DNA of 64,000 nucleotides from NCBI GenBank assembly GCA_936450465.1, contig OW388292.1:29958368-30022367 (forward strand). Direction: 5' to 3'. The number at the start of each line of letters is the position of its first letter. Position 1 is the stretch's first letter. The notes under the pieces were generated by a model, which did no database searches, was not told the origin of the DNA, and saw nothing but the letters and a program-made list of their open reading frames with translations. Below are positions 11,586-63,918 of the stretch, piece after piece. This DNA comes from Gibbula magus. Its lineage: Eukaryota > Mollusca > Gastropoda > Trochida > Trochidae. A program made the position numbers and the translations under genes.

Positions 11586-11790
11586 GGGGATGAAGCTCAA
11601 TTGGTAGAGTGACTGCTCATCACCAGGTAGGTGGATATCCGGCTGCGACATTCCAAAAGACGTTAAAAGATGGGAGATGTTGCTTCCTTGCTTGTCACTC
11701 AGCATTATAAGGATAGAGCAATGCTTGAACTGGCGCTGCACAGTGGCTGCCGGGTGCTACAGGCACAAACCGAAGTTCCGAATTGTAATG
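11586..11790 (+). mobile_element. tRNA-derived SINE, degenerate copy
   Basis: It starts with a tRNA-like head (GGGGATGAAGCTCAATTGG, an A-box match). The B-box region (gtggatatccggctgcgac) has decayed. It is followed by a body also present in the SINE at 50315: aaagatgggagatgttgctt, ccttgcttg, cattataaggatagag and gcttgaactg. The shared body shows these are two copies of one SINE family. From memory the body resembles the conserved domain of MetaSINEs, but I cannot align it here. Not a functional tRNA gene. Confidence 0.7.
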
Positions 11791-43550: not shown

Positions 43551-43824
43551 TATTATCCCCTCGGGCGATATAGTCGTTGGCTCCGTCTGTCCGTCCGTCC
43601 GTCTGTCCGTCCGTGATCACATCGTTTCCGGAGCAGTACTTGAAAACTAGTTGGCCAAACCTCACCAAATTTGGCATACAGCTTCCCCATATCATGTAGA
43701 TGTGCCTTTTGGGGGTTCAACTTTTTGGAAATTTTAATTTTTGTTGTTTCCATTGTAACAATTTGGACTTTGTCTATTTGAAAGGTAGGGTTTGTTTCCG
43801 GAGCAAATCTTTAAAACTACTAGG
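43551..43824 (+). repeat. Host repeat, left of the 6.4-kb element
   Basis: It begins ttatcccctcgggcgatata, has a GTCC/GTCT run at 43581-43614, then the ~150-bp repeat phrases (ttccggagcag, catgtagatgtgccttttgg). It continues across the insertion at 50266. The joined reading is supported by a neighbouring uninterrupted copy at about 50483-50600, where ctaagaatactaggccaatcc is continuous. Confidence 0.85.
43819..43824. other. Target-site duplication ACTAGG, left copy
   Basis: Identical to 50266-50271. Identity extends to 9 bp (ACTACTAGG) because the element's right end is ACT; symmetry of the inverted repeats favours 6 bp. The unoccupied sister repeat has a single ACTAGG. Confidence 0.85.
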
Positions 43825-43932
43825 AGTAGTATAGACGTTACTATAGCACAAAAAATGACGTAATCATTTCCGGTGTTCCCGCCATTTTGACTGACGTCAA
43901 TGAGGGGGCTCAGGTAACCTTTAGGTGACCTT
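43825..43932 (+). repeat. Left terminal inverted repeat
   Basis: Reverse complement of 50158-50265. It contains a TGACGTAA variant (43856-43863), a TGACGTCA palindrome (43892-43899), a CCGCCATTTTG box (43880-43890, YY1-like on the other strand), and a TAACCT-5 bp-TGACCT pair (43915-43931). The inner flank to about 44013 also resembles the inner flank of the right end. Confidence 0.95.
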
Positions 43933-43955
43933 TAATTAAGGTAGGAGGGTTAAGG

Positions 43956-43969
43956 TGACCTTTAGGTCA
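43956..43969. promoter_or_regulatory. Everted AGGTCA-type pair, left end
   Basis: TGACCT-tt-AGGTCA just inside the left TIR, about 100 bp upstream of the first gene. It matches nuclear-receptor half-sites by sequence only. Confidence 0.35.
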
Positions 43970-44001
43970 CCTTTTGTAGAAAACTAGGTCATGGGATCCA
44001 T

Positions 44002-44008
44002 TATAAAA
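44002..44008 (+). promoter_or_regulatory. TATA box of the PC4-like gene
   Basis: TATAAAA lies 49 bp upstream of the chosen ATG, leaving room for a short leader. It is the only TATA match close to this gene. Confidence 0.5.
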
Positions 44009-44056
44009 TGACCTAACTTTTAGGACATTACAACATTGTCAACTAGCGCTGACAGG

Positions 44057-44599
44057 ATGAATACTTCAGACAAGAATTCCCTAGATGAAACCTTGGCTAC
44101 CCTTCAAGACCATTATTGTCATATTGATCTTGGCGACAATGTGTTTGCGACAGCAAAGACATGGAACGATGTTGTATACATTGACATCAGGAAGTATAAT
44201 GTGTATGTGAATGGCAAGTCTTACCCTACTAAACGTGGTATTATGTTAACTCTAAAACACTGGGTTGAACTTCCTGGAGTGTTCCATCACTTGCAGGAGT
44301 ACAGCAAGACAGGTGATTATACACATGTTGGAGCAAATGTGTATGCAACATTAGAAGATCATGTTGTGGATCTTAGGCAATGGGAACAAGATGATACTGG
44401 TAAACTAGTTCCAACCTCAAAGGGTATTCTACTATCTCAAGACCAGTGGAAACGACTGAGAGATTGTTGTGATGTGATGCCAGATTTTGTAATAGAACTT
44501 AAAGACGTAGTTCCTTGTATGGCAAGTGAAGACCATCAGAATCAGATGGGAGCACTGACGTGTTCCTTCTGTAACCCCAATGACTACATGAATTGGTAA
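44057..44599 (+). CDS. Tandem PC4-like ssDNA-binding protein, 180 aa
   Basis: The start chosen is the first ATG after the TATA box; the frame is open seven codons further up without an ATG. Two copies of a PC4/p15 transcription-coactivator-like fold are seen. Copy 1 (about residues 20-75) has YIDIRKY, NGKSYPTKRGIML and a closing W69-x2-L72. Copy 2 (about 88-135) has VVDLRQW, TGKLVPTSKGILL and QDQW131-x2-L134. The D-I-R-x-Y and P-T-K-x-G-I-x-L pattern is the family signature. PC4 proteins bind single-stranded DNA as dimers and act in transcription or replication, so one chain with two copies could make the dimer internally. The tail has a C-x2-C (CSFC). A role in element transcription or genome binding is inferred. 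No AATAAA lies between this gene and the next. Confidence 0.75.
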   Translation: MNTSDKNSLDETLATLQDHYCHIDLGDNVFATAKTWNDVVYIDIRKYNVYVNGKSYPTKRGIMLTLKHWVELPGVFHHLQEYSKTGDYTHVGANVYATLEDHVVDLRQWEQDDTGKLVPTSKGILLSQDQWKRLRDCCDVMPDFVIELKDVVPCMASEDHQNQMGALTCSFCNPNDYMNW

Positions 44600-44625
44600 A
44601 GTTCAATATAGTTCTAGACCTTGCG

Positions 44626-44662
44626 CTGTACGGACGTGTTTTAAAGTCGCTCTGATACTATG
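44626..44662 (+). promoter_or_regulatory. Upstream box of BIR gene 1, shared with BIR gene 2
   Basis: CTGTACGGACGTGTTTT and CGCTCTGATACTATGG here are nearly the same as at 45143-45178 before the second BIR gene. The promoter or leader was duplicated with the gene and has been kept, while the rest of the intergenic DNA differs. Confidence 0.55.
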
Positions 44663-45019
44663 GATGTGTGTGGTTATCTCGACAACGCTGTTGTTGCTGA
44701 TTGTAGTGGATTTCCTTCAAAATCTGATTGGACTTCGTTCGAGAAGAGACTTGATTCTTTCAAGGACTGGCCTTTGCAGATGAAGCAAAACCCAAGAGAC
44801 TTGGCTCATGCAGGACTCTATTATCTGAGCCGTGGTGACTCGTGTATTTGTTTCAAATGTGGTATTCGTCTCAAAGACTGGATGTCTACTGATGACCCCT
44901 GGGTGGAACATAAGAGGTGGTCCCCAGATTGTGACTATTTGTATATGATAGGACAACCTAACCAAAAGAGTGATACTGATGGCAAGAAAAATCCATTGAC
45001 CCTTAAAACAATATTTTAA
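44660..45019 (+). CDS. Single-BIR-domain protein 1, 119 aa
   Basis: One BIR (inhibitor-of-apoptosis) repeat fills about residues 26-95. It has R30-x3-F34-x2-W37-P, then A49-H-A-G-L, and the zinc-binding spacing C64-x2-C67-x16-H84-x6-C91, which is exact for the family. There is no RING, CARD or second BIR, so it is far shorter than cellular IAPs. BIR domains bind caspases or IAP-binding-motif peptides; an anti-death role for the element in infected cells is a reasonable inference but untested. A short Cys-containing N-terminus (MDVCGYLD) is shared with the next gene. The C-terminus ends KTIF, as does the protein encoded at 46007. AATAAA follows at 45054. The ATG follows the conserved upstream box directly. 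Confidence 0.9.
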   Translation: MDVCGYLDNAVVADCSGFPSKSDWTSFEKRLDSFKDWPLQMKQNPRDLAHAGLYYLSRGDSCICFKCGIRLKDWMSTDDPWVEHKRWSPDCDYLYMIGQPNQKSDTDGKKNPLTLKTIF

Positions 45020-45053
45020 AAATACATTTGTGATAGGTATATCATGATATTGT

Positions 45054-45059
45054 AATAAA
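45054..45059 (+). terminator. Polyadenylation signal of BIR gene 1
   Basis: AATAAA 35 bp after the stop codon, followed by a GT-rich stretch (ttgtatg ... tcttgtgttggttttc). Confidence 0.7.
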
Positions 45060-45142
45060 CATATTGTATGTATTTTTCTTGTGTTGGTTTTCTTTTTGAG
45101 TAATCCTGACCATAGGAGGTTATTCTTCCATTAGACTCAGAA

Positions 45143-45178
45143 CTGTACAGACGTGTTTTTATTCGCTCTGATACTATG
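45143..45178 (+). promoter_or_regulatory. Upstream box of BIR gene 2
   Basis: CTGTACAGACGTGTTTTT and CGCTCTGATACTATGG repeat the sequence before BIR gene 1. No TATA box is evident at either copy, so this box is the best candidate for the shared control element. Confidence 0.55.
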
Positions 45179-45526
45179 GATGTGTGTGGTTGTCCTGATG
45201 AGACTTTTTTTGCTGATTGCTGTGTATTACAACCTAAATGTGACTGGAGTTTGTTCGAGGAAAGACTAGATTCATTTAAGAACTGGCCAATTCAAATGAA
45301 GCAGAGTGCTGAAGATATGGCTCATGCAGGACTTGTGTACCAGAACAGAGGAGACTTGTGTGTATGTTTCGAATGTAATGTTCGTCTTAAGGGATGGATG
45401 TCTACGGATGATCCCTGGGTAGAACACGGGAAAAGGTCCCCAGATTGTCACTATCTTAGAATGGTAGGAAGACCAAAGTGGTATAATAAGATGAACTCTG
45501 ATGGACAAAAAAATAACAAGGACTGA
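45176..45526 (+). CDS. Single-BIR-domain protein 2, 116 aa
   Basis: Tandem paralogue of the preceding gene. It has the same MDVCG start, the same BIR layout (F-x2-W-P near residue 35, then A-H-A-G-L) and the same zinc spacing C-x2-C-x16-H-x6-C. The phrase GWMSTDDPWVEH is almost unchanged, whereas the N-terminal 30 residues and the tail have diverged strongly. Both copies keep all zinc ligands, so neither looks like a decaying duplicate; two different partners (host death effectors) would explain this but is inference. The tail lacks the KTIF end. AATAAA lies at 45601. Single-BIR proteins without RING also occur in other animal DNA viruses. Confidence 0.9.
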   Translation: MDVCGCPDETFFADCCVLQPKCDWSLFEERLDSFKNWPIQMKQSAEDMAHAGLVYQNRGDLCVCFECNVRLKGWMSTDDPWVEHGKRSPDCHYLRMVGRPKWYNKMNSDGQKNNKD

Positions 45527-45600
45527 TGTTACTCTAATCAACTGAATGTAAAGGATTCATTCAAAACCAATATTAGAACTCACTTTTTGTTAATGTCTGG

Positions 45601-45606
45601 AATAAA
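45601..45606 (+). terminator. Polyadenylation signal of BIR gene 2
   Basis: AATAAA 75 bp after the stop codon, followed by a GT-rich run (tgtctgtttgttgttgtg). Confidence 0.7.
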
Positions 45607-45940
45607 AAGATTTAAGATATAATGTCTGTTTGTTGTTGTGTATATAAACAATATCATGAGAGTAATATTATCACTTGGTCAATATGGCTCCTTACATTAC
45701 ATGATATTTATTATGATCCTTAACATCAGTTATGCTGGACCCAAGAAGTTATACAAAGCTGTGAAAGCTGAAGGTCAATTTAAGATTCGATTTAATTTCA
45801 CGTTATCTTTGGGTCTATCCACTGCAGTCTACCAAAGGTCAAGAAGTGTTTAAAGCCTTGACAAACAAGACACAAGATCGCATATTTGGTATTTTATCAA
45901 ATTGATATGAGAACTGAATTCAATATAGGTTGACAGAACT
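45607..45940. other. Intergenic gap inside the element
   Basis: About 330 bp without a convincing gene. A short open stretch (45638-45853) lies here but has no recognisable motif. A leftover of a lost gene is possible. Confidence 0.35.
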
Positions 45941-45948
45941 TATATAAT
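45941..45948 (+). promoter_or_regulatory. TATA box of the small basic-tailed gene
   Basis: TATATAAT 59 bp before the ATG, followed by TAACGTCA (a CRE-like variant) at about 45964. Confidence 0.5.
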
Positions 45949-46006
45949 AGGTCGAGATAATGACTAACGTCATTTGCTTCAGAACATTCAAACTGAACGC
46001 ATCACC

Positions 46007-46381
46007 ATGAGTCAACAATATATACCATTTGTCCCGGACACAGAGAAATGGACTCGCTATTATATGTTACAAGTCCAGGGTAAATTGAAACTATATAGTT
46101 TTGTGATGAGAAATGGGGAACGACAGGGTATCATGTCTGTTGACAGAACATTGGAGCTGTACGATCCAGAATGGCCTAAAATTTTGGAAGAAAGGAAACG
46201 AAAAGAACAGGCACTGACCATGCCTTATTCTGAGCAACCCAAAATTAACTTTGTCTCCCCTACACAACAAGTCGTGGAGCAAGCTCAATCTCAGGAAAAA
46301 AGGCAACAGGCAAATTTTAAACGGTCAAAGGAAATCAAAGTAAGAGGAGGTCCAAGAAAACGAATGAAAACAATCTTTTAA
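46007..46381 (+). CDS. Small basic-tailed protein of unknown function, 124 aa
   Basis: I do not recognise the family. The start is the first ATG after the TATA box. The N-terminal half (MSQQYIPFVPDTEKWTRYY...) is compact with aromatic residues. The middle is a charged, probably helical segment around 55-67 (EERKRKEQ). A Gln-rich stretch spans about 83-102, and the last 20 residues are strongly basic (KRSKEIKVRGG, then RKRMKTIF), fitting a nuclear-localisation or DNA-binding tail. The position just before the ATPase, and the size, would suit a core or accessory virion protein of a small dsDNA virus, but that is a guess from context. Its stop lies only 56 bp from the next ATG. The end KTIF is shared with BIR protein 1. 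Confidence 0.7.
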   Translation: MSQQYIPFVPDTEKWTRYYMLQVQGKLKLYSFVMRNGERQGIMSVDRTLELYDPEWPKILEERKRKEQALTMPYSEQPKINFVSPTQQVVEQAQSQEKRQQANFKRSKEIKVRGGPRKRMKTIF

Positions 46382-46399
46382 CTACCAACAACACCAAAT

Positions 46400-46406
46400 T
46401 ATAAAG
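46400..46406 (+). promoter_or_regulatory. TATA box of the ATPase gene, next to the upstream terminator
   Basis: TATAAAG lies 32 bp before the ATPase ATG and only 10 bp before the AATAAA (46416-46421) that serves the preceding gene. Stop, TATA, AATAAA and the next start fit in about 60 bp, a virus-like economy. Confidence 0.45.
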
Positions 46407-46415
46407 TTAGTTTGA

Positions 46416-46421
46416 AATAAA
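46416..46421 (+). terminator. Polyadenylation signal of the small basic-tailed gene
   Basis: AATAAA 35 bp after the stop codon. If used, the cleavage point falls near or inside the start of the next gene. Confidence 0.6.
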
Positions 46422-46437
46422 CCATTGAACTGTCAAC

Positions 46438-48126
46438 ATGGTGATGTGTCCAGTGTGTGGGGAAGTTTTTTCCAGAACTGACAATATGTTGAGACACAGG
46501 AGATCTAAACACAAACCTGCTTTTGAAAATTCACAGTCACAGACAAATACACAGCCAACGACAGACAACCACAGGCAGCAACCATTACCGACGCCGTCCC
46601 CTCATGGCCCTCCTCATGGCCCTCCTCCTCCTCCTCATGGCCCTCCTCCTACTCCTCATGGCCCTCCTCCTACTCCTCATGGCCCTCCTCATGGCCCTCC
46701 TCCTCATCATGATGCTACTCATCATTCGACTGAAGAATTCAGGCTATTACATCCCTTTACAATGGTAGTTTCTGGGCCCACTTCGAGTGGTAAAAGTTTA
46801 TTAGTGAAGCAGTTTCTAGAGAGGATGAAGATTAAACCATATCCAGAACGAATTATCTGGTTATACAAGAGATGGCAGCCTTTGTACAACACAATTCTTA
46901 CAGACGTTTATCCAAATGTTGAGTTCTTCCAAGGTATTCCTTCTGGCCTTGAAAAGGATGATTTTCTTGATCCTACTATGGTGAATGTCCTCGTTCTTGA
47001 TGATCTAATGAGTTCAGCGAGTAAGGACCCACGCATAACAGATCTATTTACAGAAGGTTCCCATCATCGCAACCTCTCTGTCATCGCCATCAATCAAAAC
47101 CTTTTCTATAATAGGGACCCAACACAACGGAGAAATTGTCTCTATTTGATCCTTTTTAACAATCCAGTGGATCAACAACCTATCATGACTTTAGCAAGGC
47201 AAATGTATCCAACCCGATCTCAACATTTTATGCAAACATTTCAGTTGGCTACTCAAAAACCGTATGGGTATTTACTTGTCGACCTTAAACCATTTACTCC
47301 CAACTCTGATCGGCTCTGTCCTAATGTATTTAGTATTAAAAGAGAACACACACCACAGAAGATTCATTTTGAGCGAAATCTCCATAGAGTGCTGACTTGT
47401 GAAAATTACCTCTCAAACATGCCTTCCTGTGATGATTGTGGAATAGTATTTCAGGACCATTCTGATCTGCAAAAACATAGAAAAAATTGGTGTCCAGAGA
47501 GTGGAGACTCTAGACAGAGTCCTCCTGGATTACCTGATGGGAGAATGAAAAGAAAATTGGAAGAGGATTTCATTACTGTGAAAAAAACACGTCAAATGGA
47601 AGATTGTGTTTATTGTGGGCAAATGTTCAATAATAGTCATAACTTACAGAGACATCTCCATGATAAACAATGTCCCGAAATGGAAAATGCTACTGATGAC
47701 GACGATGATAACGTTACAAACCATGCTGATAAACCACAGAAAGCAGATGATCTTGAGGAGCAAGGAATAAGACAAATGTATAAAAGTGTACGTGAGGTGA
47801 ATAAAGACTTTTTGGAAGAGAAAAGACAACTTTATTTGAAAAGAGGTCTCACTGAAGAAATGATTGATGATAAACTGAAGAAGTTAACATGGAGAGCTTT
47901 TAAAGAAATGTATGCACACTTTATTATGTATCTGCACTATTTGCAATGGGGACCAAAGACACAAGGACTTTTGAATCAAGTAGAAGACACCAATGGTATA
48001 TATCACACTGTGTTTTCTAAATTGTACAAATATAAATCTTGGATAGAAGATTTAATTGATGATGACGACGAAACGCTATCTGATGACGAGAGTGAGGTAT
48101 CGGAGGATGAAGATGAAAGCCAATAG
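46438..48126 (+). CDS. Zinc-finger / A32-type packaging ATPase fusion, 562 aa
   Basis: Parts in order. A C2H2 finger (C4, C7, H20, H25). A linker with seven HGPP-type repeats (about 55-91). A P-loop ATPase (about 100-300) with Walker A GPTSSGKS (113-120), a Walker B ending VLDD (about 182-189), the conserved segment GSHHRNLSVIAINQNLF (207-223) holding the polar Q220, and Q255-MYP. Then two C2HC fingers (C331, C334, H347, C352 and C390, C393, H406, C412), a charged helical region and a very acidic tail. The ATPase motifs fit the A32-like FtsK-HerA branch, which pumps viral DNA into capsids. I do not recall A32 ATPases with fingers at both sides; they could bind element DNA. All catalytic residues are present. 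The alternative frame across the HGPP repeat is a shadow. Confidence 0.85.
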   Translation: MVMCPVCGEVFSRTDNMLRHRRSKHKPAFENSQSQTNTQPTTDNHRQQPLPTPSPHGPPHGPPPPPHGPPPTPHGPPPTPHGPPHGPPPHHDATHHSTEEFRLLHPFTMVVSGPTSSGKSLLVKQFLERMKIKPYPERIIWLYKRWQPLYNTILTDVYPNVEFFQGIPSGLEKDDFLDPTMVNVLVLDDLMSSASKDPRITDLFTEGSHHRNLSVIAINQNLFYNRDPTQRRNCLYLILFNNPVDQQPIMTLARQMYPTRSQHFMQTFQLATQKPYGYLLVDLKPFTPNSDRLCPNVFSIKREHTPQKIHFERNLHRVLTCENYLSNMPSCDDCGIVFQDHSDLQKHRKNWCPESGDSRQSPPGLPDGRMKRKLEEDFITVKKTRQMEDCVYCGQMFNNSHNLQRHLHDKQCPEMENATDDDDDNVTNHADKPQKADDLEEQGIRQMYKSVREVNKDFLEEKRQLYLKRGLTEEMIDDKLKKLTWRAFKEMYAHFIMYLHYLQWGPKTQGLLNQVEDTNGIYHTVFSKLYKYKSWIEDLIDDDDETLSDDESEVSEDEDESQ

Positions 48127-48189
48127 ACATTGTAAAGCAGATTTATAGGAGTGCTCCTTATCCTAAAATCGGCTCATTGAAACGGGGCT

Positions 48190-48195
48190 AATAAA
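48190..48195 (+). terminator. Polyadenylation signal of the ATPase gene
   Basis: AATAAA 64 bp after the stop codon, followed by ttgttgtattc. Confidence 0.7.
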
Positions 48196-48331
48196 AAAAT
48201 TTGTTGTATTCTAGTTTATTATTTGTTATTTTCTTATGATACTCATGACATAAACGTTTTGAAATGGCCTTGGTTTAAACAACTGGTCTACACACTACAA
48301 GGTTTGCATGAAATACTACACTGAATTTCAG

Positions 48332-48550
48332 TCCAGCTGCCTGTCAGAGTTGTACCACAAACAGGATGTGCCCAGTTTTAGGTAATTCTATTTCTGTAAT
48401 ATTTATGACAGGTCAAAAGTCCAGCTGCCTGTCATATGTTTACCAAAGACAGGATGTTTCTACTTAAGTACGTTAGTTGGTAAAGTTTGTGATGGGCAAA
48501 AGGTCACCTATCTAAAATAATTCCCATATAAAGTATGTGCCTACTTTTAG
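48332..48550 (+). repeat. Degenerate ~87-bp direct repeats in the right arm
   Basis: gtccagctgcctgtca occurs at about 48332 and 48419, each followed by acaggatgt... and a run ending in a short gtcaaaag/gcaaaag segment. A third, weaker unit begins near 48504. No gene is encoded. Confidence 0.7.
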
Positions 48551-48737
48551 GTTTACTTGTTGATCACATCTTGTTTCTAATCTTAATGAAAACATGATAG
48601 ATGTAAAATGATTGTATTGTCAGAAATATTTAGACCTTAGTCTCATAACAAATCCATAACAATATCTCATTTTATCATTATCATCTATTTCATATCAATT
48701 GCGTAACCACCCCCATAAAGTGACATTTTTTCTAGAA

Positions 48738-49013
48738 ATGCTAGCGCAAATCTTGAGCAAGATATATTATAACATACTAAAATGTATGAAACATATTGCT
48801 AATCACTTGGAAATGACATTTTCAGAAAATGGTATTCAGACTTTAAGCAAACTTGTGCAAAGTCTAGGGTATTATAAGTATGCTCATTTATATGAATCTA
48901 AGGCCACATTCTTCTTATCTGGCCGCATAAGAACGCATTATGTAATTAAGGAAATGACTACTGAGTATTCAGTGTGTCAGTGTTGTCCTCCCTATGGGTT
49001 TGTAAGCAGCTAA
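48738..49013 (+). CDS. Doubtful small open frame, 91 aa
   Basis: This is the longest frame in the 2.1-kb right arm of the element, counted from the first ATG. It has a Lys/Ile/Leu-rich first half and a CQCCPPYG segment near the end. No family is recognised, no TATA or AATAAA is well placed, and composition is like the AT-rich surroundings. It could be a degenerate remnant or chance. Confidence 0.2.
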   Translation: MLAQILSKIYYNILKCMKHIANHLEMTFSENGIQTLSKLVQSLGYYKYAHLYESKATFFLSGRIRTHYVIKEMTTEYSVCQCCPPYGFVSS

Positions 49014-50028
49014 ATGGTAAATAATAGACTTGATTATTGTCCTTCACTTTGATATTATCATATCAAGCTTTGTGTCCTTTTCTCCCCAAAAACTCGTTTT
49101 GAATGAATACATCTACAAATGGCACATGGATTTGTCATAGGGTATAGTTTATCCTTCATTCATGACACTAACATTGGAGTAAAACATTACATTATTCCAC
49201 ACTTTTAAAACATATTCTGGGTCACTCTCAGTTTTTAAGACAAATGTTACCTTTATTGTTTTATTAGCATATTGTGATCAGTATGTTTTCCCCCAATATG
49301 TATCCATATAGAATAGCGCAGACTGAGTGCAATTCTTTTATTTCAGATTGAATATTGAAGCAATGAAGGATCTCTCTCTCACGTGTTGATGTGTATTCAT
49401 GTAAAGAAAACTCATGCTAATATGGCTTATTCCATCAGAATAAGACAATCGACAGATTAACAGAATATTAACAAGTTTTAAAGTTACTCCACTGAAATTA
49501 CACTAACCACGCATAGGTTGTTTCATTCAGTAACTTAAACACACAACAATTAAGGATATCACTGTATGTCCAGTTGAAAACTTCCTGCTTATTGGTCAAA
49601 CTGAAGGAGTACTTGAGATGTTATATCCTGTTCACATCCGTCGGCATTTCTACAGTTACTGACCACTGGTCAATGAAAGTTAGTTTATCATCAGACAATT
49701 TTATACAATTCTGTAAAATCTTGTAGTATGAAAATAAGTATGGATATGATTTCAAAAACCTTAATCCAACTCATGTCATTAAATTTGGTCAGCTCTTAAT
49801 CAAAAATAGATAAACACTTGTATTAATGACAACTGTCAAATCCATTGTCCCGTAAGTTCAATCTATGTTGACATCAGTCAAAATATGACAGATAGAAAAT
49901 TGCTGATGACAACAAAAAATGGAAAGATTTGATTGAAGATATAATTGAATGACTGACGTCATTCAAACATGTCGGGAAGATCTCCATGAAATGACTATTG
50001 TCATTCAAAATGGATGAAAGATAAGAAT
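49014..50028. other. Gene-poor right arm of the element
   Basis: About 1 kb of AT-rich sequence with no supported gene on either strand. A TGACGTCA palindrome (49954-49961) and short tgacgtcattcaaa / tgtcattcaaaatgg echoes of the terminal repeat lie near its right end. This is where capsid or replication genes might once have been, but no trace can be read. Confidence 0.5.
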
Positions 50029-50157
50029 TAAAAATGTGTCATAATAGATCCCATGACAACACATTCAAAGGTCACCTAAAGGTCACCTTAATCCCATGAT
50101 GTCATTCAAAATGACATAATCACAATTTGTCATAATAGATCCCATTACCATACATTC
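50029..50157. repeat. Subterminal repeat, partial copy of the right TIR
   Basis: The unit tgtcataatagatccca...aggtcacctaaaggtcacct occurs here and again about 91 bp further right, running into the TIR. It contains a perfect AGGTCA direct repeat with 5-bp spacer (50069-50085). On the left, 43953-44013 is its inverted counterpart. Confidence 0.85.
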
Positions 50158-50265
50158 CAAGGTCACCTAAAGGTCACCTGAGCCCCTCCTTGACGTCATT
50201 CAAAATGGCGGATACACCGGAAATGATTACGTCATTTTTTGTGCTATAGTAACGTCTATACTACT
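50158..50265 (-). repeat. Right terminal inverted repeat
   Basis: Reverse complement of 43825-43932, with 50214-50265 identical to the outermost 52 bp. It holds AGGTCA-CCTAA-AGGTCA (50160-50176), TGACGTCA (50191-50198) and CAAAATGGCGG (50201-50211). Confidence 0.95.
50160..50176 (+). promoter_or_regulatory. AGGTCA direct repeat, 5-bp spacer (DR5)
   Basis: Perfect AGGTCA half-sites five bases apart, the classic layout bound by RAR/RXR-type nuclear receptors. A second perfect copy is at 50069-50085, and a one-mismatch copy is in the left TIR. Binding is not shown. Confidence 0.4.
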
Positions 50266-50271
50266 ACTAGG
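50266..50271. other. Target-site duplication ACTAGG, right copy
   Basis: Pairs with 43819-43824; host repeat sequence (ccaatcctcaccaatttgg) resumes immediately after. Confidence 0.85.
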
Positions 50272-50610
50272 CCAATCCTCACCAATTTGGTATACTGTCT
50301 CCCCATATCATGTAGGGGATGTAGCTCAGTTGGTAGAGCGTCCACTCGTCACCCGGTAAGTCGGTGTTCGAATCCCGGTCGCGTCATACCAAAATACGTT
50401 AAAAGATGGGAGTTGTTGCTTCCTTGCTTGACGTTAAGCATTATAAGGATAGAACAACGCTTGAACTGAAGCTGCACTGTAGGGTTTGCTTCCGGATCAA
50501 ATCTCTAAGAATACTAGGCCAATCCTCACCAAATTTGGTATACTGCCTCCCAATATCATGTAGATGTGCCTTTTGGGGGTTTATTTTTCTGCTTCCATGG
50601 ATAAGCATTC
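50272..50610 (+). repeat. Host repeat, right of the element, with a nested SINE
   Basis: The repeat interrupted at 43824 continues here (ccaatcctcaccaatttggt, atatcatgtag), is broken by a SINE, and then has an uninterrupted further unit at about 50483-50600 that serves as the empty-site reference for the element. Confidence 0.85.
50315..50478 (+). mobile_element. tRNA-derived SINE
   Basis: The tRNA-like head (50315-50390) has an A box in TAGCTCAGTTGG and a B box in GTTCGAATCC. The body aaaagatgggagttgttgct, ccttgcttg, cattataaggatagaac and gcttgaactg is shared with the copy at 11586. The head is better preserved here than there. The fused body and the repeat setting argue against a working tRNA gene. 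Confidence 0.8.
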
Positions 50611-62619: not shown

Positions 62620-63918
62620 CGAGGGGTGTCCCAAAAGTTTCCGGCCTGAATATGAACTCATGCCTAAAACGCAACCATACTGTGCGTCCATGAAGTTCAT
62701 TCATTTGCGTGTAAATGACATGAAAATCATGAGATGCATACTCTTCAATTGCGTATAAAAGCCTGTCCTTCACAGGTACCCTCACTTTGTGTATCGAAAT
62801 GGAGAAAAGTGAATGTAGAGCTGTCATCAAATATCTGAGTTTAAAAAAATACACTCCAAAGGAAATTCATGGGGATATACATGTCACAAACATTAGGTGA
62901 CTCTGCTCCTTCATATAGCACAATTAAACATTGGTGTGCTGAATTCAAACGGGGTAGAGTAAGCACTGAAGACGAGCCCCGTCCCGGTCGTCCATCTGAT
63001 GTCACCACAGGGGAAAACATTGAGGCTGTTCTTGACACAATATTGCAAGACAGACGTGTGACCATCAGATACATAGCTGCTACTCACCACATCAGTAAAA
63101 CATCAGTTGAAAGAATTATACACGAACATTTAAATATGAATAAGGTATCCGCACGCTGGGTCCCCAGAATGTTATCTGAGGACCAAAAGCGAAAACGTGT
63201 CATTGTGAGTCAGCAACTTCTTGGCGAGTACCGCGCAGACCCAGAATCATTTCTTGCCCATGTGGTTACTCAAAATGAAACCTGGGTTCACCATTTTGAT
63301 CCTGAGACAAAAAGCCAAAGTATGCAATGGAAACACAGCACTGCAGACATCCCTAAAAAGTTCAAAGCTTCTTCCTCCTGTGGTAAGGTCATGGCCTCCG
63401 TTTTCTGGGACTCGCAGGTTGTAATAATGATAGATTACTTAAAGAAAGGTTCTACAATCAATGGCACTTATTACGCAAATGAACTGCGACAATTGCGAGA
63501 GAAAATCAAAGAGAAACGAAGGGGTAAACTTCGCAAAGGTGTGTGGCTGTTGCAGGACAATGCTCCTGTTCACACCGCCCAAGTTGCAGTCAGTGCAGCA
63601 CAGGATTGTGGGTTTAGGAATCTCCCCCACCCTGCCTATTCTCCAGACCTAGCCCCCTCACACTTCTACCTCTTCCCTCGACTGAAAACAGAGCTCCGGG
63701 GGTCATAGGTTTGAGACTGACGATGACGTCATTGCTGCAGTAGAGGAATTGTTAGGGTCTCGTGATAAAAAGTGGTTTTCAGAGGGGTTACAGATGTTAG
63801 AAAAACGCTGGAGCAAATGCATTGAAGTCAAGGGTGATTATGTGGGAAAATAAGCCATAAAGATCTCAATGTTTCGTCGGTTCTGATGGTCAGGCCGGAA
63901 ACTTTTGGGACACTCTCG
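62620..63918 (+). mobile_element. Mariner (Tc1/mariner superfamily) element, 1.3 kb
   Basis: Inverted ends of 29-30 bp: the left begins CGAGGGGTGTCCCAAAAGTT and the right mirrors it with one or two differences. Each is flanked by TA (62618-62619 and 63919-63920), the obligatory mariner target. Length and the single transposase gene are typical. The coding region is inactive (next entry), so it is a fossil or could move only with a transposase supplied elsewhere. Confidence 0.95.
62799..63853 (+). pseudogene. Mariner transposase, frameshifted and catalytically broken
   Basis: The ATG at 62799 opens a typical mariner N-terminus (MEKSECRAVIKYL), which shifts frame near 62860-62870. The main frame (to 63708) carries the helix-turn-helix DNA-binding region (GRPSDVTT linker), WVPRMLSEDQK (usual WVPH-L site) and the catalytic core. 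A second frameshift near 63700 leads into the expected C-terminus, ending at TAA 63851-63853. Of the D,D34D triad, the first Asp is Asn (TQNETW instead of TGDETW), the second is intact (QDNAPVHTA) and the third is His (DLAPSH instead of DLAPSD), with exact 34-residue spacing. The cut-and-paste reaction should be impossible. Confidence 0.95.

Follow-up and report, generated by a model that had tools for sequence, protein, structure and literature searches.

Polintons, or Mavericks, are DNA elements of 15-20 kb (PMC4028283), and vertebrate Mavericks, as described in one survey, possess terminal inverted repeats (TIRs) that begin with AGT repeated twice, 6-bp target duplications, and two modules on different strands (PMC8097293). 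Virophages, including Mavirus and Sputnik, are small double-stranded DNA elements that live as parasites of another virus and are evolutionarily linked to Polintons (PMC4028283). Phage-inducible chromosomal islands (PICIs), among them the Staphylococcus aureus pathogenicity islands (SaPIs), are short elements that use phage virion proteins, some of them also encoding a packaging determinant; certain SaPIs possess a small terminase by which their own DNA is directed into packaging (PMC6092414). The locus compared with these systems here is a Polinton-like element within a stretch of 64,000 nucleotides from the gastropod Gibbula magus (contig OW388292.1, positions 29,958,368 to 30,022,367 of the forward strand), the whole of which is referred to as the window. 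The element is probably a member of a family of short, protein-coding Polinton satellites, integrated, and likely replicated and packaged, in trans, with an ATPase of its own.

The window element shares with Polintons and Mavericks the TIRs beginning AGTAGT and the 6-bp duplications, and its PC4, BIR, and basic-protein genes, along with its arms, are common to full-length Polintons of the same genome. It differs from them in its length of 6.4 kb, in showing no match to PolB, capsid, or protease, in retaining the rve-type integrase gene only as a relic, and in carrying a zinc-finger ATPase that is absent from both same-ended full-length elements examined. The first 52 nt of its TIR pair are identical, with 94% identity over 108 nt, and a 20-nt end pattern matches twice in the window, at the two TIR ends, against 0.01 matches expected. 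Joined flanks and a neighbouring host repeat agree in 77 of 85 columns with exactly one ACTAGG, the alignment scoring 68.0 with one copy of this motif, 63.5 with two, and 58.5 with none. An earlier note on this DNA had described ends identical over 52 bp, a duplicated ACTAGG, an empty repeat nearby in which ACTAGG stands once, and five intact co-oriented genes; the ends and duplication are confirmed by end comparison and flank letters, the empty repeat by the best-scoring one-copy alignment, and the genes by open frames and Pfam. One protein holds two PC4 stretches (Pfam, 2.7e-23), the two BIR proteins match at 6.3e-23 and 9.9e-22, and Pfam searches of ten small open reading frames, both relic frames included, returned nothing useful. 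The note was also right that the 6.4 kb contain no recognisable polymerase or capsid, as neither these nor protease, relics included, were matched in the window copy at E<0.1 with genes of one full-length element as queries. Its statement that no integrase is visible needs correcting, since a broken relic rules out a complete lack of integrase.

The window's own genome (1.47 Gb) was searched with a 95-nt end query, and 40 matches of 111 candidates were scored. Genome stretches examined carry L numbers, with L021/L022 and L023/L024 representing one full-length element each. Twenty elements, including that of the window, are bounded by both ends: two full-length elements, 16 elements of 6.0-11.6 kb, and two of 1.0-1.3 kb. 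Perfect and all different 6-bp duplications flank 16 of these 20, whereas L023/L024, L033, and L038 have duplications agreeing at five of six positions (read by eye from the letters) and L020 has none. These TIRs and duplications as bounds, repeated at many loci, rule out an island of host genes. From one end, the short elements present PC4, BIR, usually a second BIR, integrase or its relic, basic protein, zinc-finger ATPase, and a gene-free arm; the PC4-to-basic part has about 75-97% DNA identity to full-length elements, and the gene-free arm matches the other end of L023. The ATPase gives a long match in 15 of the 16 mid-size elements and a fragment only in L025. Searches of 20 other short-element stretches with genes of one full-length element gave no PolB, capsid, or protease match at E<0.1. 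A variant comprising L010-L013, L033, and L025 has no PC4 and BIR matches, and parts of its gene-free arm are inverted on both sides, producing very long inverted ends. Within one element, the left and right TIRs agree with a mean of 0.973 (n=19, excluding L020), more closely than left ends compared across elements (0.858, 171 pairs), as would be expected if each were copied as a linear molecule with homogenised ends.

The C-terminus KVRGGPRKR.KT of the basic protein occurs in all 12 short-element proteins and differs in both full-length ones in an alignment of 14; being found in short elements with and without integrase alike, it suggests one founding junction. A protein-database search with the basic protein recovered no relatives (one candidate), even though this genome itself contains further copies. 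An 11.6-kb same-ended element, L016 and L017 (G000:C4:14693497-14705702), was also observed to carry, in addition to the zinc-finger ATPase, another and divergent ATPase (29% identical) encoded on the opposite strand, and is perhaps a nested element.

At least two full-length elements, of 17.1 and 16.0 kb, share these ends and are candidate helpers within the same genome. The checks put forward in the earlier note gave the results it expected, with further copies that have these ends and, allowing for variants, this order of genes, with full-length Polintons of the same TIR, and with no match to capsid or polymerase inside the short elements; its satellite reading is thereby supported. In both L021/L022 and L023/L024, PolB and the element's own ATPase are encoded by one strand; the opposite strand encodes integrase, an adenain-like protease (PF00770), a 429-aa protein, and three small proteins, a layout like the two-strand module arrangement described for vertebrate Mavericks (PMC8097293). 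The PolB of L021 belongs to PF03175, and the L022 integrase combines rve with a chromodomain. PC4 and BIR were matched in L022, while in L024 all that was matched is a BIR remnant of 21 residues. Size, position, and co-occurrence with PolB make the 429-aa protein the probable major capsid protein; it had no relatives among viral contigs. Among the matches scored, its gene lies at 98 loci and PolB at 40, so that many open-looking Polinton genes were observed in this genome, and 35 of the 40 PolB loci are within 20 kb of a capsid locus. Capsid genes 92-93% identical to the query were often seen beside PolB genes only about 62% identical, and the capsid and polymerase modules thus appear shuffled.

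The zinc-finger ATPase sets the short elements apart. Pfam detects C2H2 fingers together with Pox_A32 (2.8e-4) and Adeno_IVa2 (4.5e-4), both just under Pfam's own cut-offs; the Walker A motif is conserved, and many relatives carry precomputed PF04665 or PF02456 assignments. The window element is accordingly predicted to have the packaging ATPase of A32/FtsK type typical of Polintons. Its AlphaFold model has a mean predicted local distance difference test score (pLDDT) of 66, with the ATPase core mostly at about 80. Identity to the ATPase of the same-ended full-length elements is 34-46%, and a tree built by a quick method, using the 104 proteins long enough, places 19 short-element ATPases in one group (support 93) made up of two clades (98 and 99) and separate from those 104 proteins and from the ATPase of the full-length element. 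Judged by identity and tree position, the short-element ATPase is of a different lineage from that of the full-length elements. A simple deletion of a same-ended Polinton is ruled out, as its ATPase is not the one kept.

In the genome, the ATPase yielded 93 matches at 77 loci (with 77 of 6533 candidates scored), and stops are absent from 32 of 41 near-full-length matches by the author's count, which takes in the window. Elsewhere 365 relatives were found; among the best 120 listed, those with species names are bivalves, except one filed under a bacterial bin (Sedimenticola) that is probably DNA of the host. A scan of bacterial genomes recovered one relative, L001, and a comparison with viral contigs none. 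L001 (JACCHT010000018.1), a contig of a Bathymodiolus symbiont bin, matches PolB and ATPase of Polinton type and probably derives from the host mussel. The relatives of the ATPase make it probable that it originated in a different Polinton lineage and not within the satellites. The earlier note had not recognised the gene set as a described unit; its account is refined in that PC4, BIR, and the basic protein are common to full-length Polintons and the ATPase is of another lineage. A literature search on PC4, BIR, and Polinton found no paper on such an element.

The integrase relic consists of two collinear fragments in different frames that match a Mya arenaria integrase by tblastn, corresponding to residues 6-64 and 128 onward of the helper integrase. 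The tblastn score, single or paired, was reached by none of 2000 dinucleotide shuffles. Recognition was achieved only against the Mya integrase and then against integrases of the same genome, identity to that of a full-length element being 35%, 90%, and 67% over residues 6-42, 45-64, and 128-160, respectively. As these collinear pieces match the integrase of a full-length element, the window element once had an integrase gene.

Fourteen of 15 integrase-less regions (BIR-to-basic or corresponding) hold a relic with a common 3' breakpoint at nt 517-521 of the helper gene, L012 being the one without. The internal deletion from nt 192 to 380 is common to the window, L018, and L037, and the left piece of L039 ends at 180. 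Distances (K) are 0-0.17 among the 14 relics, compared with 0.21-0.40 to integrase genes. Twelve of the 14 relic-bearing copies are bounded, 11 by perfect, all different 6-bp duplications and L033 by one with five of six positions. Since integrase-less copies with one common deletion occupy many sites with their own duplications, integrase was presumably provided in trans; these sequences are most simply explained by a single deletion event, after which the copies inserted with integrase supplied in trans. Integration in trans of the integrase-less branch is, on this comparative evidence, well supported, in line with the earlier proposal that integrase is borrowed from a helper. The short elements thus cannot make all their own proteins, yet insert at new sites. 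Integrase without stops persists in the short relatives L028, L029, and L040 (residues 25/26-398 or 1-398), and with a frame break in L038; L029 and L038 are bounded by both ends, and none of the four showed a PolB, capsid, or protease match within the stretches fetched.

Selection was assessed from the ratio of nonsynonymous to synonymous substitution (dN/dS) in Nei-Gojobori pairs. The basic protein has dN/dS of 0.09-0.40 in pairs with dS above 0.1, with closer pairs reaching 0.76 on few changes. PC4 values are 0.16-0.33, save for L015-L017 and the identical window-L018 pair; BIR1 values are 0.12-0.23 in pairs with replacements; BIR2 values are 0.22-0.56, save for window-L018, which has two replacements only. 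For the ATPase, the five integrase-less copies of clade alpha give 0.22-0.42 in 10 pairs (P<0.01 in 8), which are not independent because they have branches in common, and comparisons between clades alpha and beta give 0.10-0.18 with dS saturated. Purifying selection on the remaining genes is present in most comparisons.

The short elements are physically separate from the helper candidates and have exchanged DNA with them. Considering scored matches only, the 77 ATPase loci all lie more than 20 kb from the 40 PolB loci (closest, 198 kb) and from the 98 capsid loci (closest, 50 kb), and the frequent PolB-capsid proximity given above serves as the control. The left arm of L018 is 98.4% identical over 2088 bp to full-length L023, where the window has 83-86%, while the PC4 and BIR1 proteins of L018 are identical to those of the window; L029 and L024 share 2.6 kb at 95.7%. 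Such exchange implies contact between the two kinds of DNA, which joint copying would provide. L018 and full-length L023 also have in common a spacing of 481 bp between repeated segments of the arm, which fits recent exchange.

Table 1. Coordinates of the Polinton-like element and its features in the window
Feature	Position	Strand	Size, support, or remarks
Polinton-like element	43825..50265		6.4 kb; bounded by TIRs and 6-bp duplication
Left target-site duplication, ACTAGG	43819..43824		sequence and empty-site alignment
Left TIR	43825..43932	+	end-versus-end comparison
Protein with two PC4 (p15) domains	44057..44599	+	180 aa; Pfam; 79% identical to L022 PC4 protein
BIR-domain protein 1	44660..45019	+	119 aa; Pfam; 78% identical to L022 BIR
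BIR-domain protein 2	45176..45526	+	116 aa; Pfam
Integrase relic (rve type)	45616..45923 (about)	+	internally deleted, frame-broken, 3' part missing; between BIR2 and basic-protein gene
Basic-tailed protein	46007..46381	+	124 aa; residues 4-90 93% identical to protein of full-length L022
C2H2 zinc-finger ATPase, A32/IVa2-like, predicted packaging ATPase	46438..48126	+	562 aa; Walker A GPTSSGKS
Arm without recognised gene	48127..50158		parts match L023 left arm, 83-86% at DNA level
Right TIR	50159..50265	-	end-versus-end comparison
Right target-site duplication, ACTAGG	50266..50271		sequence and empty-site alignment
Empty copy of host repeat, neighbouring, single ACTAGG	50479..50563	+	alignment to joined flanks

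Within the gene-free arm, a 91-aa open frame at 48738-49013 (+) is probably no gene, because similar stretches in most other copies contain stops. Outside the element, a tRNA-like repeat of the short interspersed nuclear element type, identified by eye, is present in two copies 80% identical, at 50315-50480, directly beside the right flank of the element, and at 11586-11744. A 287-aa open frame resembling a mariner-type transposase was recognised by eye at 62845-63708 (+).

The satellite family may have originated from a Polinton that lost its middle, comprising capsid, protease, its own ATPase, and polymerase, and acquired, behind the basic-protein gene, a zinc-finger ATPase from a different Polinton lineage; the branch to which the window element belongs would later have lost the integrase as well. 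Copying in trans is suggested by the lack of PolB together with ends common with full-length Polintons, and packaging is predicted from the kind of gene that selection kept. A protein-primed helper polymerase would copy any linear DNA with these TIRs, and the integrase of the helper or of a related element would insert the short element. The zinc-finger ATPase, perhaps with the basic protein, would direct the short genome into helper capsids in the manner of the small terminase of PICIs, while PC4 may act on transcription or replication and BIR may delay host-cell death.

Several observations weigh against this interpretation. Regarding the helpers, the PolB of full-length L021 is split over two frames, and the putative 429-aa capsid has no Pfam, NCBIfam, or convincing PDB match and a poor structure prediction (mean pLDDT 35.5). 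Regarding the survey, only a fraction of the candidates was scored (ends, 40 of 111; ATPase, 77 of 6533; PolB, 42 of 142; capsid, 98 of 358), and seven of 14 further end stretches (L028, L030, L031, L032, L034, L035, and L036) have no second end within the 10 kb fetched, three of which (L032, L034, and L036) also have no gene match. Regarding selection, dN/dS reaches 2.3 for PC4 in L015-L017, close ATPase pairs are unconstrained (L014-L030 1.18, L027-L030 0.87, and L014-L027 0.68), and the ATPase core of L010, L011, L013, and L033 shows replacements only, where compared. The relic provides no clean clock and was dropped as a neutral one, the window-L010 pair having a relic K of 0.03 and a basic-protein dS of 0.20, a mismatch that points to recombination. 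Support for a single ATPase clade is 88-93, the lower value coming from a set reduced to 14 and 52, where the threshold given by the tool is 95. The ATPase model has no PDB match at E<=0.001, and its best named viral fold match, adenovirus IVa2, is weak (E 1.2e-3, TM 0.25-0.31; an unnamed protein ranks first). In gene models of bivalves, the ATPase type is fused to integrase in nine of the 126 proteins in hand, five of these nine having been fetched by an integrase query, or to protease in four, and in L001 it stands beside PolB and a PolB-linked protein; these fusions and this neighbour indicate that the ATPase is not satellite-specific in general.

The strongest competing explanation, although an unlikely one, is that of an ordinary non-autonomous Polinton, made defective by deletion and mobilised in trans, whose genes are passengers that have not yet decayed. 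It would account for the reduction of the integrase to a relic, for the 1.0- and 1.3-kb versions with the same ends, for the stops or frame breaks of several copies, and for the close pairs with dN/dS near or above 1. It does not account for an ATPase that, at 34-46% identity, is no leftover of the same-ended Polintons examined, nor for the predominance of stop-free near-full-length ATPase matches, the constraint on ATPase, basic protein, PC4, and BIR in most diverged pairs, or the single gene arrangement common to many insertions.

Two further alternatives appear very improbable. The short and long elements could form one cooperating multipartite provirus, the short one supplying a second ATPase needed by the long one, which would fit the same TIRs, the recent arm exchange, and the abundance of both kinds; both full-length elements examined, however, have their own ATPase and the other standard Polinton genes. 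A role in host defence, with the ATPase and basic protein as decoys that poison Polinton assembly and BIR and PC4 serving the cell, is compatible with genes under constraint in a genome where Polinton capsid-type genes are very common, yet the copies have dispersed as mobile units, each with ends and duplications of its own, and are not confined to a single fixed locus. That the zinc-finger ATPase is itself the mobilising enzyme of an autonomous element unrelated to the Polinton integrase is hardly credible, for although every one of the 16 bounded short elements contains at least part of it, the protein is similar to packaging ATPases, the ends and 6-bp duplications are those of rve-integrase elements, and integrase-bearing short relatives exist (L028, L029, and L040).

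The satellite interpretation can be placed against the systems described above. Virophages are parasites of giant viruses and carry capsid genes of their own. The earlier note had likened the element to a virophage-like parasite, which is apt for a small parasite linked to Polintons; the analogy is loose because virophages encode capsid genes, while the window element has no match to the putative Polinton capsid gene, the only capsid query used, and its likely helpers are Polintons. PICIs are closer, the likeness lying in the way of working and not in kinship, with packaging by the short element here a prediction; PICIs are bacterial, not animal, and a functional integrase is missing from the window copy. 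As in non-autonomous DNA transposons and miniature inverted-repeat transposable elements (MITEs), the element is internally reduced, has the ends of an autonomous partner, and is moved in trans; unlike MITEs, it holds five open genes mostly under constraint, one of them absent from both same-ended full-length partners examined. Non-autonomous Polintons are catalogued in repeat databases. No paper on non-autonomous, defective, or satellite Polintons was found in the literature searched, a body outside which most subscription journals fall.

A more far-reaching proposal, to which slightly less than an even chance is given, is that these elements are an animal counterpart of phage satellites: a large, recently active family without capsid or polymerase that hijacks Polinton virions by means of its own zinc-finger motor, was built once from two Polinton lineages, and includes a leaner, integrase-less branch needing a helper for integration. 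Maverick particles had not yet been observed at the time of the vertebrate survey (PMC8097293). The loss of polymerase and capsid, and in one branch of integrase, with conservation of a packaging-type ATPase makes most sense if virions exist, and the satellite family offers a concrete test of whether Polintons package DNA. If the proposal is true, satellite-helper biology, known from bacteria and protists, would extend to elements inside animal genomes, and the spread of the satellites would constitute genomic evidence that Polinton particles form in animals today.

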